64,000 nt of DNA. Origin: Parafrankia discariae (GTDB taxonomy: Bacteria; Actinomycetota; Actinomycetes; Frankiales; Frankiaceae). Below, piece by piece: positions 9,208-29,483 of the stretch; the first letter of the stretch is position 1; each line of letters begins with the position of its first letter. Where the stretch lies: contig NZ_KB891208.1 in the NCBI RefSeq assembly GCF_000373365.1, positions 62,001 to 126,000 on the forward strand, given 5' to 3'. A program made the position numbers and the translations under genes. The notes under the pieces are model-generated. The model ran no database searches. It was not told the origin of the DNA and worked only from the letters and a program-made list of their open reading frames with translations.

Positions 9208-10110
9208 CTACGCGTAGCTGTAGCCGAGCGTGGTGATGTCGAGCAACGAGGCGGGCGTGACCCCGGACGTGGCAAGACCCAGCAGCGCGTCGTTCAGGTT
9301 GTGGCCCGTCGGCCCGCCGGTGACCGGGAGGTAGTCGGTAGCGTGCCCGGACGCCTGCCATATCGACCAGATCCGGTCGACGTTCGAGTGATGCAGCCAG
9401 AAGATCGGATCGTTCGGGGACGTGCTGACGCCCATGTCGCCGCCGACCCACCGATGCACCCGGCCATGCATCCTGGCCTGGGTGGATGACTCGCCGGCGT
9501 GCCGGAGGAAGCCCTCTATCCGGTTACGGAAACTCGGGCTCGTGCTCTGGGAGTCGATCCAGGGCGAATGATCGTACTGTGACTCGGTGAGGCAGTCGGC
9601 GACGTCCGCCTGAGTCGGCAGGGTTGTCGCGCCGGTGTCCACCGCGAACTTCCGGATGAGTCCAACCCTTGAACGGGGGACGAGCTGATTCGTCGAGCTG
9701 TTCAGGATGATCGCCTGCCAGCTGACGAACGGTCCGTCCTGTACATACCAGCCGTTGCTCTGTAAACCGTTCCCGCCGAAGTAATCTGCCGTCCAGATCA
9801 GAGCCTGCTTCGGGTCGGGGAGCGCGGCGTCGGCCTCCCACGGCCAGTAAGGAATTCCGAAATCGGGCAGGACTGTGGCGAGCGCGGATTCGAACTCGAG
9901 GAGTGACTGGCGGTGCCAGGGCAGGAACGACGGTCCCTTGTGCGCGGCGTTCCGTACGGCCTGTGAGGACGGTGTGAAAGTCATCATCGCGGTGTGGTGC
10001 CGGGTCACGAACTGGTCGTAGACACCTGACTGCTTCAGGGTGTTCAGCGCGTCGGTGAACGCCTGGACCTCGGTCGGACTGAGTGCGTAGATACTTCGAC
10101 GAACAGGCAC
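9208..10110 (-). CDS. melC2: Tyrosinase (type-3 copper monooxygenase)
   Basis: 300 aa. It oxidises monophenols and o-diphenols to o-quinones. CuA ligands are visible as H38/H39 (TRHHTAMM), H57 and H66 (PWHRQ). CuB ligands are H215 and H219 (HGRVHRW) and H241 in FWLHHSNVDRIW, after the SPNDP motif. Length and spacing match Streptomyces MelC2. GTG 10110 is preceded by a purine-rich GAGGGGGGAAGG and gives the family N-terminus; the longer open frame to 10323 has no homologous features. The protein has no signal peptide, as expected if the adjacent MelC1-like protein carries it. Confidence 0.96.
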   Translation of the reverse strand: MPVRRSIYALSPTEVQAFTDALNTLKQSGVYDQFVTRHHTAMMTFTPSSQAVRNAAHKGPSFLPWHRQSLLEFESALATVLPDFGIPYWPWEADAALPDPKQALIWTADYFGGNGLQSNGWYVQDGPFVSWQAIILNSSTNQLVPRSRVGLIRKFAVDTGATTLPTQADVADCLTESQYDHSPWIDSQSTSPSFRNRIEGFLRHAGESSTQARMHGRVHRWVGGDMGVSTSPNDPIFWLHHSNVDRIWSIWQASGHATDYLPVTGGPTGHNLNDALLGLATSGVTPASLLDITTLGYSYA

Positions 10111-10947
10111 GTAACCTTCCCCCCTCGCCGCCGCGCTCACTGGGCGCGGCGGCGCATTCCTGTGAACGACTCGACGCCGTGACCTGCGATGGCCCCTCGG
10201 CACCGGGCCGGTCGATGTCGGATATCCGACGCCGGCCGACTGGTTCCCGGAAGCCGCCGTCGCTGTCCACGCCACCGACCCGGCGGCGGGTGTTCCCGAC
10301 GCCGGCTTCCCCTGTGCCCACACGCATCCCGGCTGCCGCCCGCCTTCTCGATCCCCCGCCGGTCCGTGGCGGCCGGGGACCGGGCAACTCGCTGCCGGTC
10401 GACCGGATGCAGGACCGGCATCGGATTGCTGAATGATGGAGGCGTTGCGACCTTCATGCTTTGAACCCTGTCTGCGTGAGAGTCGTCACCAGTTTAAGCG
10501 CATGCCGGAGGGCGTAGCTACAAATTGGCTTGAATTCTTTCCGGAAACCGTCTAGGCACTCTCCGTGCCGGTGCCGCTACATTATGGTGGGCTGGTGAAT
10601 GGGTGCCGTGGCAGATCTTCCTTCGTGGCAGTCGATTCGGCTCGTCAGGTGTCGGTCCGACTGTCGGAGGCGAGGTCGAGGTGCCACTTTCGGATTCCTG
10701 TCGTCTAGCAAACAAATTCTGACGACAAGCAAGCAATCGGCATCCGATGGCGCGCCCGGGTCATCGGAGCAGGCGCGGCCGCGCCTGCTCCCGCAAGCGT
10801 CCACGTAGCTGCTCCGGAAGATCTCCCGTCGAGGTAGTACCGTTCGACGAGATGGGTCGGGGACATCCCGGAATTCTCGTATCTCGGTGTCCCACCCCGT
10901 TATGCTCGACCCTGCCCGCTATCAGGGCTATAACTAGGGGGAAAGTC
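10111..10947. other. Divergent intergenic region with a palindrome
   Basis: 837 nt between the tyrosinase and the first gene of the exopolysaccharide cluster. Apart from the 26-bp palindrome at 10766-10791 and a less GC-rich stretch around 10440-10560, nothing is recognisable. It should hold promoters for both directions. Confidence 0.6.
10766..10791. promoter_or_regulatory. 26-bp perfect palindrome (operator or hairpin)
   Basis: Perfect inverted repeat, GC-only except one A/T pair, centred between 10778 and 10779 and 157 nt upstream of the cluster's first start codon. It could be an operator, a leader hairpin or a terminator. Confidence 0.5.
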
Positions 10948-12054
10948 ATGAAGGTGGAGGTTTCGTCCGCGTCGGGCGATCTTGTCTCCATCGGTGTGCG
11001 TGGCCTGAGGGGAGCGGAAGAGGCGTACTTCCGTTCCTCGGGCGTAGAGCTTGCCGAGACGGCGAACGCCGGCCTGACCGCCACGCTGACAATCGCCATG
11101 CGGCGCGGCATGACTCTGGAGTGCGCGGGGCCGATCAGCGAGGTGCTGGCCGCCCGGGTGGACGACTACCAGGCGCTGATGTCGCGGTGGTATCCCGCCC
11201 TCGAGCCGGTACAGGTGCTGACCGGGACCGCTCGCTCGGCCCGGCCGGCGGGGGCCGAGACCTTCTGCTTCTTCTCCGGCGGGGTCGACAGCTTCTACAC
11301 GCTCCTGCGCAACATCGACAGGGTGGACGCGGTCGTCTACGTGCATGGATTCGACGTCGCTCTGAAGGACGCCGAGCTGCGACGAGTCGTTTCCGGCAGC
11401 CTGCGCCGGACGGTGGAGAGCCTCGGCAAGGAGCTGATCGAGCTTGAGACCGACCTGCGCGCGCTGTCGGATCCGCACGTCAGCTGGCCCGCCTACGTCT
11501 CGTCCGGGCTCGCCACCGTCGCGCACCTGCTGTCCCGGCGGTTCGGTCGCGCGCTGGTCGCCGGGACTCTCGCCTACCACGAGCTGCAGCCGCTCGCCTC
11601 ACACCCGCTCACCGATCCGTTGCTGTCCAGCGACCAGATCGCGATCGAGCACGACGGATGTGACGCCACCCGCCAGGAGAAGGTCGCCTTCATCGCGAGG
11701 CACCCGGTCGTCCGGCAGAACCTGAGGGTCTGCTGGGAGAACCCGGGCGGCGACTTCAACTGCGGCCGGTGCGAGAAGTGCCTGCGCACGATGCTCGCCC
11801 TGGAGTCCCTCGGCGTGCTCGGCGAGTTCACCTGCTTCCCGTCCGGTCTTGATCCGGATGTCGTGCGGCGGGTTGACCTCCCCGGCCGAGGCCCCCGGCA
11901 CTGGGCGGTCGTGAACCTGCGGGAACTTCGCCGGGCGAACCGTGACCCCGTGCTCGTCAGGGCGCTTGCCGAGGCGATCGCGAGGTCCGACGCACGGCGG
12001 GTGCACCGGCTCGTGCGGCGGCGGGCCCCGCGCGGCCGGGCCGCGACGACCTGA
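10948..12054 (+). CDS. PP-loop ATPase-family protein of unknown substrate
   Basis: 368 aa from ATG 10948 behind AGGGGGAAAG. FCFFSGGVDSFYT (SGGVDS at residues 110-115) is the ATP-pyrophosphatase loop of the QueC/asparagine-synthetase/NAD-synthetase superfamily, which adenylates a carboxyl or carbonyl group before amidation or thiolation. C272, C275 and C278 in CGRCEKC form a likely metal site like that at the C-terminus of QueC. The 100-residue N-terminal region is not recognised. It is the first gene of the cluster, 57 nt before a pyruvyltransferase. No other queuosine gene is nearby, so a role in making an amidated or otherwise nitrogen-modified sugar is inferred, not shown. Confidence 0.8.
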   Translation: MKVEVSSASGDLVSIGVRGLRGAEEAYFRSSGVELAETANAGLTATLTIAMRRGMTLECAGPISEVLAARVDDYQALMSRWYPALEPVQVLTGTARSARPAGAETFCFFSGGVDSFYTLLRNIDRVDAVVYVHGFDVALKDAELRRVVSGSLRRTVESLGKELIELETDLRALSDPHVSWPAYVSSGLATVAHLLSRRFGRALVAGTLAYHELQPLASHPLTDPLLSSDQIAIEHDGCDATRQEKVAFIARHPVVRQNLRVCWENPGGDFNCGRCEKCLRTMLALESLGVLGEFTCFPSGLDPDVVRRVDLPGRGPRHWAVVNLRELRRANRDPVLVRALAEAIARSDARRVHRLVRRRAPRGRAATT

Positions 12055-12111
12055 CGCGGTGCTGTACCGACGGACCATCCGGGGATTACGGGACGCTGGG
12101 GGACGCGAGTA

Positions 12112-13173
12112 ATGACGGAGGCCGCGACAGGGGTCCCGTACGCCTCGACGGCAGCGGTCGCATCCACTGCCCGCCTGATCGAGAGCCTGTCGACGCGGGC
12201 CACGGCCGCCGTCGCCGACCTGCTGCCGCCGGGGACGACCGACGTGGCGCTCCTCGACTTCCCGTACCACCGCAACAGCGGTGACTCGGCCATCTGGCTC
12301 GGCGTACGCCAGATTCTCCGACAGCTGGGAGTAAGAGTCGCCTACGTCGCGGACACCGCGCGCTACCGGCCGGACCGGTTACGGGAGGCACTGCCGGAGG
12401 GGCCTGTCCTGTTACTCGGCGGGGGGAATTTCGGTGACCTCTGGCCGGGGCATCAGGAGCTCCGGGTCCGGGTCCTGCGTGACTTCCCGGACCGTACCGT
12501 GATCCAACTTCCGCAGAGTATTTCCTTCCGTAGTCGGACGGCGCTTTCCGAGGCCCAACGCGTGACCGCGGCCCATCCGAATTTCACTCTCATGGTCCGT
12601 GAACGGCGTAGCCTTTTGTTCGCCACCGAGAACTTCGATGTGCCGCTCGTGTTAGCGCCAGACTCGGCCCTGGCCAACGGCCCACTGAGACCGCCGCGGC
12701 CGGTACGTCCCGACGGCGTGCTGTGCCTTGCCCGCGATGACGTCGAGGGCACCGGAGCCATCGCGGGCGTGGCCGGCCCCGGAATACGTCGGGCCGACTG
12801 GGGAATACGCGGCCTTCCCGCGGCGCGGTGGCAATCGGCAAAAGTGCTGCCGAAACTCGAGCGGCATGCCCTGGGCCGGAGTCCGGATGGGCACCGGGCG
12901 GCCCGCCCCGCGCTGCACGCGGCCTATGAAACAATGGCTACGGTAAGCGTTGAAACAGCGACGAGCCTCCTGTGTACCGCGCGTTATGTGGTGACCGACC
13001 GGTTGCACGCGCACATTCTCTGCCTGCTTCTCGGTATCCCACACTCGGTGTTTGACAACAGTTACGGAAAGGTCAGCGGGACCTTCGAGGCGTGGACCTC
13101 GGGCAGCGACCTCGTGCACTGGGCGACCAGTGCGGACGAGGCCCTGGAGAGATGTCGGGAGTTCGCGCCGTGA
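12112..13173 (+). CDS. Polysaccharide pyruvyl transferase family protein
   Basis: 353 aa. The family transfers enolpyruvate from PEP to hydroxyls of lipid-linked sugars to make a ketal, adding negative charge to exopolysaccharides. Seen: YHRNSGDSAIW near residue 52, GGGNFGDLWPGHQ near 103, and DRLHAHILCLLLGIP in the C-terminal half, all typical of PF04230 (ExoV/EpsO type). ATG 12112 follows GGGGGACGCGAG. Its stop overlaps the next start by 4 nt (GTGA), so the two genes are probably translationally coupled. Confidence 0.9.
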   Translation: MTEAATGVPYASTAAVASTARLIESLSTRATAAVADLLPPGTTDVALLDFPYHRNSGDSAIWLGVRQILRQLGVRVAYVADTARYRPDRLREALPEGPVLLLGGGNFGDLWPGHQELRVRVLRDFPDRTVIQLPQSISFRSRTALSEAQRVTAAHPNFTLMVRERRSLLFATENFDVPLVLAPDSALANGPLRPPRPVRPDGVLCLARDDVEGTGAIAGVAGPGIRRADWGIRGLPAARWQSAKVLPKLERHALGRSPDGHRAARPALHAAYETMATVSVETATSLLCTARYVVTDRLHAHILCLLLGIPHSVFDNSYGKVSGTFEAWTSGSDLVHWATSADEALERCREFAP

Positions 13174-14306
13174 CCGCCCCACCGCGACGCGGCGTCGGTG
13201 CTCGCGCGGACACCGCCGCTCGCGCCGACACCGCCAATACGGGCCGTGAGTCACGGCCGGTCGTGGAGGTGCTCCTGAGCCGGGGCCTCGACCCCTACGA
13301 CTGGGAACGTCGGCACGCCCGAGGCGAGGTCCCGGACGTCTGGCCGTACGGGCTGAACAGGCTTGCCGACCACGGCTTTCGAACCAGCGGTTCGCTGCCG
13401 GCGGTGAGCCACCGGGCGCCGGGCGCGAGGGTCACCCGCGCGCTGGGGGGCTTCGAGTGGCGGGAGGTCGCCGCGCGTCGGATCGACGCGGCGGCGGAGG
13501 CGGTGCTGTGCTGGGACGAACGGGCCGGGGTACCGGCTGCCTCGATGGAGCGGTGGCGGGGCGGCCGGCCGGTCGCCACCGGCGTCATCTGGCTGACCGA
13601 TCCGGTGGGCCGGCCGCGGGGGGCACTGGCGCTGGCACCCCGCGCGCTACGTTCGGCCCAGCTGGTCTGGGTGCTGTCGAGTGCCCAGCTCCCGGTGCTC
13701 CGGGACGCCCTGGGGGTCGCCGAACGCAGACTCGCCCATCTGCCCTTCGGTATCGACGCGGACTTCTTCCGGCCGGCCGAAACCGATTCGGTACCCGGCC
13801 TGGTGGTCAGCGTCGGAAACGACCGGCACCGGGACCACGACACGCTTCTCGCCGCCATCGCGGACGCGGCCGGAAAAGTCGCCGGGCTGCGCCTGGAACT
13901 GGTGACCGGTCGAGAGGTGACGATTCCGGAAACGCTCGGGAAACGACACCCGAGAATGAACCACGCCGATCTTGTTGATCTCTATTCCCGAGCCTCCGCC
14001 GTGGTGGTGGCGCTGCGTCCGAACCTACATGTCAGTGGCATCAGTGTCGTTCTCGAGGCGATGGCATCGGGCCGCCCCGTCGTGGTAACCGAAACCTCGG
14101 GGATGTCCGACTACGTCGATCACGGGCGGACCGGACTGCTCGTTCCGCCGGGTGATTCCAGTGCCCTCGCCGCGGAGCTGGCGGGGCTCCTGCTCGACCC
14201 CGACCGGGCGGCGGAGATCGGGCGGGCCGGCCGCCAGGCGGTCGAGGAGACGTTCAACACCGGTGCGCAGGCGGGTCGGTTGGCTGGCCTGCTGCGAGGG
14301 ATGTGA
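13170..14306 (+). CDS. Glycosyltransferase, GT4-like
   Basis: 378 aa with two Rossmann-like halves. The C-terminal half carries the GT-B donor-site pattern: GISVVLEAMASGRPVV with the conserved Glu, then GLLVPPGDSSALA. VVSVGNDRHRDHDTLL corresponds to the start of the second domain. GTG 13170 is chosen for its GTGA overlap with the upstream stop and GGGAG 9 nt before it; ATG 13152 is an alternative. Probably a cytoplasmic or membrane-peripheral enzyme building the repeat unit. Donor and acceptor unknown. Confidence 0.88.
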   Translation: MTAPPRRGVGARADTAARADTANTGRESRPVVEVLLSRGLDPYDWERRHARGEVPDVWPYGLNRLADHGFRTSGSLPAVSHRAPGARVTRALGGFEWREVAARRIDAAAEAVLCWDERAGVPAASMERWRGGRPVATGVIWLTDPVGRPRGALALAPRALRSAQLVWVLSSAQLPVLRDALGVAERRLAHLPFGIDADFFRPAETDSVPGLVVSVGNDRHRDHDTLLAAIADAAGKVAGLRLELVTGREVTIPETLGKRHPRMNHADLVDLYSRASAVVVALRPNLHVSGISVVLEAMASGRPVVVTETSGMSDYVDHGRTGLLVPPGDSSALAAELAGLLLDPDRAAEIGRAGRQAVEETFNTGAQAGRLAGLLRGM

Positions 14307-14467
14307 TCTGCCGGGCCGGAGGAGAAGACCGGAGGGCGTGTGACGGCGCCGTCCTTACGAGGCACGGGAGGAACACGGACCCGCTGGGCCCGACGACGTG
14401 CCGAAAGGCGATCGGAACATCTGCCGTCGGTGAGCGCCGGCGGCGTGGGAGGGGAGGGAACGCTCAG

Positions 14468-15310
14468 ATGGATATATGGCAGATCATGCGCATCACCATT
14501 CGGCGCTGGTACGTGTTCCTGGTGGTTGTGGCACTGGGGATCGCCGCGGCCCTGGTCACCACTTCGGGAGTGAAGCCGCAGTACTCCGCGGCCATGGACG
14601 CCTTCGTCAACGCCCCGCCGAGCCGGTCGAGTGCGCCGACCGGCAGCGTGGAGAACTCCGGCGGCGTCGGCTTCGCCGGCTCGCTGGAGGAACGCGCCAT
14701 GGACGCCGACGCGTCCCGCGCGCAGATCCACAAGCTGGGCCTTCTCCCCACTTACAAGGTCAGCTGGACCAGAGCCAAGCTGGTCCTGTCGGTCAGCGTG
14801 ACGGGCCCGACGCCCGACCTGGCCCGGCGCACCGTCGAGGAGGTCGTCGCGATGGCGAACCGGCACCTCGTCGCGCACCAGGCCAGCGCCGGCGTAGCTG
14901 ATCCGGGCGCACAGTACTCGATCATGCCGGCGGCCGAGGGGGCCAACCTCTCACCCGCCCAGTACCCGGGTCGTTCCCGCCAGCGGATCGTCATCGGCGT
15001 CGTCGCGCTCGCCGCGGCGGTGGGCCTCGCGGTGGCGCTGGACGGCCTCGTCGCCGCCCGCCGTCGCGCCGCGGCCGGTGGAACCCGCCGGCCCGACAGC
15101 CCGCCGGACGCCGGATCACCACGGAGCCCGCTGGTTCTGGAGCCGGATCCGCTGGCCGCGCCGCTGTACGGCAGGGACGCCTCGGAGCGGGCCATACCGG
15201 GGCACGAGACCGCGGCGGTCAACGAGGACACGGTGACCATTCGGACGGGCGGCCGACTCGGAGCGGGGCCCGTCCCGCCGGACCTCGACCGAAGCGGCCG
15301 CCCGCGGTGA
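14468..15310 (+). CDS. Wzz/capsular chain-length determinant-like membrane protein
   Basis: 280 aa from ATG 14468. Topology is that of polysaccharide co-polymerases: membrane segments at about residues 18-37 (WYVFLVVVALGIAAALVTT) and 172-192 (IVIGVVALAAAVGLAVALDG) flank an extracytoplasmic domain of about 130 residues. This domain is shorter than in enterobacterial Wzz. The C-terminal 85-residue cytoplasmic tail has no kinase motif. Its stop overlaps the start of the polymerase gene by 4 nt, fitting a shared role in chain-length control. Confidence 0.82.
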   Translation: MDIWQIMRITIRRWYVFLVVVALGIAAALVTTSGVKPQYSAAMDAFVNAPPSRSSAPTGSVENSGGVGFAGSLEERAMDADASRAQIHKLGLLPTYKVSWTRAKLVLSVSVTGPTPDLARRTVEEVVAMANRHLVAHQASAGVADPGAQYSIMPAAEGANLSPAQYPGRSRQRIVIGVVALAAAVGLAVALDGLVAARRRAAAGGTRRPDSPPDAGSPRSPLVLEPDPLAAPLYGRDASERAIPGHETAAVNEDTVTIRTGGRLGAGPVPPDLDRSGRPR

Positions 15311-16737
15311 CGATGCCCGGACAGGCGGCGCTGCGGACGGTGGCGGCGCTCCCGATCGCCCGGTGGCGGCCGGACGCGGTGAGCATGCTGACACTCCTCG
15401 GCGTGCTGCTGTTCGTCATCCCGGCGCGCAACACCCTGCAGTCGCTCGGCGCCGCGGGCCGGCCGGTGTTCCTGCTCGGCCTGGTGCTGGCCGGCGCCTG
15501 GCTGTGCACCTGGCTGCATCCCGGCCTGGTCCGCCGTGACCGCCAGCCGGTCCGGAGCCTGTTGCTCATCTATCTGGGCGCGCTGCTCGCCGCCTATGTG
15601 GCCGGTCAGCGCCGCGGGCTCGACGGGGTGGAGTCCCGTGCCTCGGACCGGTCCATCCTGGCCGTTCTGGCGCTCGTCGGCATCGCGCTCGCGGCAGCCG
15701 ACGGAATCCCCTCGCGGGCCCGGCTCGAGGTCCTGATCTCGCGCATCGTGTCCTTCGGGGCCGTGATGGCGCTGTTCGGAATCGTCCAGTACCTGACGCA
15801 CGAGGACTACAGCAGGTACCTGCGGCTTCCCGGGTTCGTGATGTGGTCCCCGGCGCTGGAGTCCGTCTCACGGGGGGGCGGCACCTCCCGGGTCGCCGGC
15901 ACGGCGTCGCACTACATCGAGTTCGGGGTGGTCGTCGCCATGATCGTCCCGCTGGCGCTGTACCGGACTTTTCACGCTGTCACCAGGGGTGCCCGGCAGC
16001 GTGCCGCCGGGGCGCTGGTGCTGACCGCGGCGGCCGCCCCTCTCTCCGTCTCCCGGACGGCGATCATCGGGCTTGGCTGCGTGCTGCTGGTCCAGAGCGT
16101 CGTGTGGAGCTGGCGGCGGCGGTTCAACGTGTTCGTCTGGCTGGTGATCGGGGTCGGCGCGTTCGGTGCCACCGTGCCCGGCGTGCTCGGCACGCTGCGC
16201 AGTCTGTTCCTGAACTACAAGACCGATCCCAGCTATCAGGGACGGATCGCGGACTACGCGGTCGCGCAGGCCTACATCAGCGAGCGGCCGTGGTTCGGGC
16301 GCGGGCCGGGCACCTTCATCCCGGCGAAGTACTTCTTCCTCGACAACCAGTACCTCGGGACCATCCTCACCTCCGGATACGTGGGTCTGGCCGCGCTCGT
16401 CATCGTCATGCTCGGCGGGATCACGATGGCGTTCGGCGTGGCCCGGCGCGCCGCCGACGCGGCGACCCGGGAGCTGGCCCAGGCCCTCGCCGCGATGCTC
16501 GTCGCCGTCGCGGCGGCCTCGTACAGCTTCGACTCACTGTCGTTCCCGGCCTTCGCCGGCCTGTTCTACCTGACGCTGGGTGTCACCGGCGCGTTGTGGC
16601 GACTCGAACAGCGGCCCGTGCCCACACCGGCCGGGCCTGCCGCGAGGGCACCCGTCCAGGGGCGGGGCCCGCGCGGTGACCAGCAAAGCGTGGCGGAGCT
16701 GGTCCCGGCCGCCCGGCAGCCCGCCGGCATCGCGTGA
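15307..16737 (+). CDS. O-antigen polymerase/ligase family (Wzy-like) membrane protein
   Basis: 476 aa with about 11 hydrophobic segments. RPWFGRGPGTF followed by DNQYLGTILTSGYVGLAAL is the pattern of the Wzy_C/O-antigen-ligase family around its large external loop. These proteins polymerise lipid-linked repeat units at the outer face of the membrane. GTG 15307 lies in a GTGA overlap with the chain-length gene. The C-terminal 50 residues are a disordered Pro/Ala tail. Confidence 0.88.
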   Translation: MTMPGQAALRTVAALPIARWRPDAVSMLTLLGVLLFVIPARNTLQSLGAAGRPVFLLGLVLAGAWLCTWLHPGLVRRDRQPVRSLLLIYLGALLAAYVAGQRRGLDGVESRASDRSILAVLALVGIALAAADGIPSRARLEVLISRIVSFGAVMALFGIVQYLTHEDYSRYLRLPGFVMWSPALESVSRGGGTSRVAGTASHYIEFGVVVAMIVPLALYRTFHAVTRGARQRAAGALVLTAAAAPLSVSRTAIIGLGCVLLVQSVVWSWRRRFNVFVWLVIGVGAFGATVPGVLGTLRSLFLNYKTDPSYQGRIADYAVAQAYISERPWFGRGPGTFIPAKYFFLDNQYLGTILTSGYVGLAALVIVMLGGITMAFGVARRAADAATRELAQALAAMLVAVAAASYSFDSLSFPAFAGLFYLTLGVTGALWRLEQRPVPTPAGPAARAPVQGRGPRGDQQSVAELVPAARQPAGIA

Positions 16738-28658: not shown

Positions 28659-29483
28659 GTGGCGAGGAACTCCGGACGTGTCGGTGACCCGCCACCGCCG
28701 CCCGAGCCGCTGCCCGTCCCGGCGGTCGACGCGCACTGCCATCTCGACCTGATGGGCACCCCGGTGGCCGAGGCCATCGCCGCGGCCCGCGCGGTCGGCA
28801 TCACCCGGATGGTCTCCGTCGGTGTCGACCTGCCGACCAGCCGCTGGCAGGCCGAGATCGCCGCGGCCAACCCGGAGGTCCGCGCGGCGGTGGCGATCCA
28901 CCCCAACGCGGCCGCGAGCGGCGTCGACGAGGAGACGTTCGCGGCGATCACGGCGCTCGCCCGGCTGGACGGCGTCGGCGCCGTCGGCGAGACCGGGCTC
29001 GACTACTACCGCACGCCCCCGGAGCAGCACGCCGCCCAGCAGGCGAGCTTCCGCCGGCACATCGCCATCGCCAAGGAGACCGGTCGGGCCCTGATGATCC
29101 ACGACCGGGAGGCGCACGACGACACGCTGCGCATCCTGGCCGAGGAGGGCGCGCCCGAGCGGGTCGTGTTCCACGCCTTCTCCGGCGACGCGGAGATGGC
29201 CAAGATCTGCGCCGACGCCGGGTACGTGATGTCCTTCGCCGGCAACGTCACCTTCAAGAACGCCCAGGAGCTGCGCGACGCCGCCGCGGTGGTGCCCGCC
29301 GAGCTCCTGCTGGTCGAGACCGACGCGCCGTATCTCACCCCGGTCCCGTGGCGCGGGCGGCCCGGCGGCCCGTACCTGGTGCCGCTCACCCTGCGGCTGC
29401 TCGCGCAGACCCGCGGCGAGGCCGTGGACGAGCTCGCCGCCCAGGTCGCCGCCAATGCGGAACGGACGTTCGGGCCCTGGTAG
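28659..29483 (+). CDS. tatD: TatD family metal-dependent deoxyribonuclease
   Basis: 274 aa. TIM-barrel amidohydrolase-like nuclease with 3'-5' DNase activity in its characterised relatives. Metal ligands are visible: VDAHCHLDL (HxH), GETGLDY (Glu), [10 protein letters not shown] (His), FHAFSGD (His) and [14 protein letters not shown] (Asp). GTG 28659 follows GAAGGAG at normal spacing. The tatD-rsmA order is conserved in many bacteria, and the rsmA frame begins around the tatD stop. Confidence 0.96.

Follow-up and report, generated by a model that had tools for sequence, protein, structure and literature searches.

A clade of QueC-superfamily PP-loop proteins paired with ketal pyruvyl transferases: candidate tailoring enzymes of surface glycans

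What an ATP pyrophosphatase of the QueC superfamily would do beside polysaccharide genes is the question raised by a stretch of 64,000 nucleotides from Parafrankia discariae (contig NZ_KB891208.1, positions 62,001 to 126,000; hereafter the window). The gene concerned (10948–12054, plus strand, as are all its features below) is intact, starts with an ATG at 10948 just 3' of the purine-rich AGGGGGAAAG, and encodes a PP-loop protein of 368 residues that was placed in a new clade of the QueC superfamily from its ORF, start codon, structure model and tree. An N-terminal beta/alpha domain (residues 1–101; 10948–11250), delimited by the secondary structure of the model, is followed by the SGGVDS PP-loop (residues 110–115; 11275–11292) and, towards the C-terminus, by a four-cysteine zinc motif, C262-x9-C272-GR-C275-EK-C278 (11731–11781). 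Between these lie S218-H219-P220 (11599–11607), which by eye occupies approximately the place of the YPDC and TxTTHP substrate loops of QueC and QatC, respectively, and T241-R242-x-E244-K245 (11668–11682), judged by eye to be the likely counterpart of their TKxE. The initial annotation had described an unassigned PP-loop enzyme with SGGVDS and CGRCEKC motifs, and unassigned it is: the protein reached no Pfam, NCBIfam or PADLOC family, and its score against QueC (PF06508) was 12.6 bits, below the Pfam cut-off of 22. Close relatives were found in P. soli (96% identity) and P. colletiae (79%). The P. colletiae assembly has two copies of the gene, each at a contig end (L002 and L003), probably because assembly split or repeated a single locus. 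Upstream in the window lies a divergent gene (9208–10323, minus strand) that by eye resembles a tyrosinase-type copper oxidase.

The gene was also said to be the first of an exopolysaccharide cluster, which is right because polysaccharide genes follow it. After a gap of 57 bp comes an intact polysaccharide (ketal) pyruvyl transferase gene (12112–13173, plus strand), EpsO-like by eye, whose product matched PF04230 (E 3.6e-27; 96.4 bits vs. a cut-off of 25.3) and the solved structure of Pyruvyl transferase 1 (5ax7; 6.1e-43) and has both the GGGNFGDL motif and an intact RLH motif at residue 297. On sequence evidence this gene encodes a genuine pyruvyl transferase. Next on the same strand are a GT4-type glycosyltransferase gene (13092–14306), with its true start probably downstream of 13173, and a stretch (14303–16737) with a weak Wzz-like match, below the cut-off, and then Wzy/O-antigen-ligase-like genes; further 3' are more glycosyltransferase genes and one for a hexapeptide-repeat protein. 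Enzymes of the EpsO/WcuL type in PF04230 add pyruvate ketals, which bear a carboxyl group, on lipid-linked units, and EpsO of B. subtilis has been assigned to the 3,4-pyruvylation of galactose on such a unit (PMC11447030). The genome of P. discariae has one copy each of the PP-loop and pyruvyl transferase genes.

Relatives of the PP-loop protein were collected from GTDB genomes, plasmids and IMG/VR, and 42 members were aligned. The clade comprises at least 40 proteins, from Actinomycetota, Alphaproteobacteria, Cyanobacteria, Bacillota, haloarchaea and phage contigs. A maximum-likelihood tree held its 40 family rows together against QatC plus QueC with a support of 100/99, and in profile comparisons the family matched QueC at E 1.7e-11 and QatC at 7.9e-11, as against 1.1e-17 between QatC and QueC. 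Residues G112, D114, R242, C262, N271, C272, C275 and C278 were invariant in all 42 aligned members, with K277 nearly so; a loop of the SGGxDS type was found by pattern in the window protein and in 41 of the 42, and the HP of the SHP site was kept in 30. Given these invariant residues, the family members are probably active enzymes. In four Acidimicrobiia members (L061, L067, L029 and L071) the C-terminus is also extended by a long stretch that, read by eye, looks like the end of a GT-B glycosyltransferase.

The recognition motifs of the better-known relatives were missing throughout. None of the 42 members had the YxQxHxxE, VPxRN or YPDC signatures defined for QueC (PMC13329287), and the TxTTHP and CGxCxxCxIRR motifs of QatC, present in six of six QatC proteins, were likewise found in none. 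Because these substrate motifs are missing while the ATP and zinc sites are retained, the family has a substrate site of its own. These results indicate a real, conserved and unnamed enzyme clade, separate from QueC and QatC. The genomic context agreed with the earlier statement that the gene stands apart from queuosine genes: neither queD nor queE was seen around the window gene or among the neighbours of the surveyed members, of 19 carrier genomes just one had a true QueC, and the search of the P. discariae genome for a true QueC returned none, its sole match being short and weak (2.7e-4) and falling on a PP-loop stretch on another contig. Homologues might have occurred mainly with queC, queD and queE, or had no tie to polysaccharide loci; what we found was QueC in that single genome and a link to polysaccharide loci. 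The suggestion in the initial annotation of a deazapurine-like modification was not supported by the motif survey: synthesis of a preQ0-like compound for the polymer would suit the superfamily fold, but with deazaguanine-recognition motifs in no member and QueC missing from 18 of the 19 genomes it is scarcely credible.

We then compared the protein with known folds. An AlphaFold2 model built from ten sequences had a mean pLDDT of 89.5, and VIA-align placed QatC first (Z 13.9, rmsd 4.6, 286 residues aligned over residues 1–346) and QueC second (Z 12.6, rmsd 3.3, 178 residues aligned over 103–292), followed by LarE, MnmA and Cap9; nearly all top matches were PP-loop enzymes, so that the model supports a PP-loop fold. 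Foldseek found nothing in the PDB that matched the model below 0.001, and when solved structures were searched with the single protein sequence, only antibody chains and other noise came up; a profile search of the same structures had QatC as its best match (0.0023). The alignment with QatC spans residues 1–346, but the N-terminal domain matched QatC at a profile E of 0.89 and modelled poorly alone (pLDDT 63.6), and we do not claim it as a domain common to both. LarE and MnmA among these matches would suit sulphur transfer of the LarE/TtuA type to a glycan or cofactor; yet the family has no invariant cysteines beyond the four of the zinc-type motif, and the annotated neighbourhoods showed no sulphur-carrier gene, which makes such a role very improbable.

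The rank of QatC as top fold match, the phage-borne copies described below and the patchy distribution of the family would also be expected of an anti-phage defence enzyme, a QatC relative lying by chance in variable polysaccharide loci and prophages. We regard this as quite improbable: the window protein had no PADLOC match, the QatC motifs are missing from every member, no qatA, qatB or qatD occurred in the neighbour lists of the window gene and the surveyed members, and the constant partner is a pyruvyl transferase. A TatD DNase gene (PF01026) does lie in the window (28659–29483), but 16 kb from the PP-loop gene and with no qat genes nearby; the TatD gene of locus L037 adjoins a methionyl-tRNA-synthetase-like ORF (metG by eye), again with no qatA or qatB near, and a Qat-like link via TatD was rejected.

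The association with PF04230 pyruvyl transferases, which the initial annotation had proposed, was borne out across phyla. A PF04230 gene adjoins the PP-loop gene in Parafrankia, Gemmobacter (divergent), Azospirillum, two Gloeothece and Priestia, is also a neighbour in genomes G417, G578 and G609, and lies two genes away in Pseudobutyrivibrio; in G347 the two are fused in one frame of 967 residues, with the PF04230 domain behind the PP-loop domain. Among the 14 genomes from two surveys that held both genes, the two lay within 7 kb in seven (expected 0.09; P about 1e-12) and within 1.5 kb in five (expected 0.03), the expectation being that of random placement, a model that ignores a possible pull of both genes to polysaccharide loci. 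The G347 fusion and the Azospirillum plasmid, where no other polysaccharide gene was found within 10 kb of the pair, speak for a linkage beyond such a common pull; the Azospirillum case also shows that the pair can stand alone. The proposed tie to Wzy genes held locally, in the window cluster and near the members of contigs L049 and L050, but not for the Azospirillum pair. Three Parafrankia species had both genes and three had neither, and in the tree the PF04230-linked members were spread over four deep clades. Association with a pyruvyl transferase gene is a conserved trait, and the same two genes turn up together again in distantly related bacteria; together with the invariant residues and the pLDDT of 89.5, this recurrence makes the observation more than chance. 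Our literature search for PP-loop proteins with polysaccharide pyruvyl transferases found nothing.

The link is not universal. In the other seven of the 14 genomes the two genes were not near each other, and it was missing also in Nostoc and several actinobacterial genomes; no PF04230 gene was found on the plasmid of the haloarchaeal members, nor anywhere in one Acidimicrobiales genome with three PP-loop copies. The substrate is therefore not always a ketal made by the neighbouring gene. Conversely, most EpsO-like PF04230 genes on plasmids were without a PP-loop gene (about 13 of 88 records with one). Two further arrangements were seen: Priestia plasmids carry two tandem PP-loop copies (L016, 9662–10870 and 11061–12266) beside the pyruvyl transferase gene, and in Gemmobacter and haloarchaea members repeatedly have an ATP-grasp or carboxylate-amine ligase gene nearby (L011, 11253–12425; L015, 11108–12316; L047, 10004–11209).

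Our main reading, to which we give a probability of about 0.5, is that we have a zinc-binding PP-loop enzyme that tailors surface glycans as one half of a conserved two-gene module, the other half being a ketal pyruvyl transferase, and that it would form an amide on a carboxyl group. The pair probably puts an unrecorded chemical decoration on surface sugars. In the QueC superfamily, ATP makes an adenylate of a carboxyl or amide carbonyl, from which ammonia or an amine displaces AMP (PMC13329287, PMC13279940). By analogy, ATP would bind at the SGGVDS loop, the enzyme would adenylate, in the cytoplasm, a carboxyl group carried by a sugar precursor or a lipid-linked repeat unit, and transfer of ammonia (or an amine) would yield the amide, with release of AMP and pyrophosphate; the zinc site would be structural, as in QueC. 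Amidation, one of the modifications named in the initial annotation, is for a carboxyl group the leading and a plausible guess, and an amide on a carboxyl group is the most likely product, as far as chemistry can be read from the superfamily. The carboxyl amidated is perhaps the one added by the pyruvyl transferase: the partner-installed pyruvate ketal would be the most economical target, and pyruvylation followed by amidation the simplest joint pathway; alternatively, a uronic acid would be amidated or an N-acetyl group amidinated. Amidated pyruvate ketals have no mention in a review of the field (PMC6801904). More tentative, and on balance doubtful, is the full proposal that the undescribed decoration is the conversion of the pyruvate-ketal carboxyl to an amide (or to a nitrile, via a second ATP-dependent step as in QueC) with loss of its negative charge, and that phages carry the second enzyme alone and thereby change the receptor for their tail fibres.

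Two other chemistries were considered. In the first, the enzyme would act like WbpG/NASAT and turn a sugar's N-acetyl group into an acetamidino group, and the pyruvyl transferase would supply a second, independent decoration. The neighbourhood is of the same type, NASATs being PP-loop, zinc-binding enzymes of LPS loci (PMC10607449); however, the repeated pairing and the fusion with a pyruvyl transferase would be left unexplained, no CxxC or tetracysteine motif was found upstream of the PP-loop in any of the 42 members, and the cysteines follow the loop instead. We consider this reading unlikely, and by the same order of motifs the WbpG-type amidotransferases, named for comparison in the initial annotation, are not the closest kind. 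In the second, an amine other than ammonia (an amino acid, amino alcohol or protein amine) would be ligated to the carboxyl. Cap9, of the same superfamily, joins carboxy-deazaguanine to the N-terminal glycine of a partner protein (PMC13279940), and some members have ATP-grasp or carboxylate-amine ligase genes nearby, which points the same way. We give this variant a low probability. Modification of the N-terminus of the pyruvyl transferase itself was rejected, since none of six pyruvyl transferases had Gly2 and the PF04230 domain of the G347 fusion, lying behind the PP-loop domain, has no free N-terminus.

Phage-borne members bear on the surface role. On six phage-like IMG/VR contigs a member lies close to tail genes, mostly on the opposite strand: near tail-fibre genes in L051, L053 and L054, near tail-fibre and beta-helix genes in L052, near beta-helix and tail genes in L055, and near a pectate-lyase-like (spike-like) gene in L048, with a tape-measure-like match further off. 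These members are spread over at least three clades of the tree. Genes near phage tail genes commonly change the host receptor, and the position of these members fits a role on surface glycans. The tail protein of L054 shares 53.5% identity with its counterpart in Sinorhizobium phage phi2LM21, a similarity that ties its phage to Sinorhizobium phages; megablast of the L052 flanks against plasmids gave nothing. All phage-borne members stem from IMG/VR, and a search of a phage collection with the window protein found no relative. On two other IMG/VR contigs, L049 and L050, the PP-loop gene lies beside an O-antigen-ligase-like gene with no recognised phage gene among those tested, and these are possibly host DNA.

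Over the last two years the QueC superfamily has proved to reach beyond queuosine, to protein modification in CBASS and a role in Qat defence, and the present clade points to a further use in the tailoring of surface glycans. The clade lies outside PF06508 and is therefore not mentioned in the published network of that family. If our reading is true, it describes a two-gene module for a new polysaccharide decoration, in carriers that include plant-associated bacteria (Azospirillum, Parafrankia), and suggests that phages alter host receptors by the same chemistry.

The closest analogues of the phage-borne members are the serotype-conversion genes of phages (gtr, oac), which modify the host surface and are phage-borne near the tail fibre; the putative surface modification and the location would be alike, but gtr and oac encode glycosyl- and acetyltransferases rather than a PP-loop enzyme. 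With QueC the family shares the SGGxDS loop, the Rossmann-like core and the C-terminal zinc motif, C(x)8CxxCxxC in QueC and C(x)9CxxCxxC in the window protein, but QueC lacks the N-terminal domain of about 100 residues. QatC resembles the family in its PP-loop core, in the HP near the substrate loop of most members, in additional N- and C-terminal parts and in length; unlike QatC, the family keeps all four cysteines, lacks P-x4-TK as well as TxTTHP and CGxCxxCxIRR, and has a pyruvyl transferase where QatC has QatB as partner. The window pyruvyl transferase shares PF04230 and the RLH and GGGNFGDL motifs with EpsO/WcuL ketal pyruvyl transferases, but EpsO of B. subtilis appears not to have been described with a PP-loop partner (PMC11447030). 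Finally, WbpG/NASAT have in common with the family a PP-loop, a tetracysteine zinc site and surface-polysaccharide loci, but in NASAT the cysteines (44–82) precede the PP-loop (122–127) (PMC10607449), whereas in the family described here they come after it.
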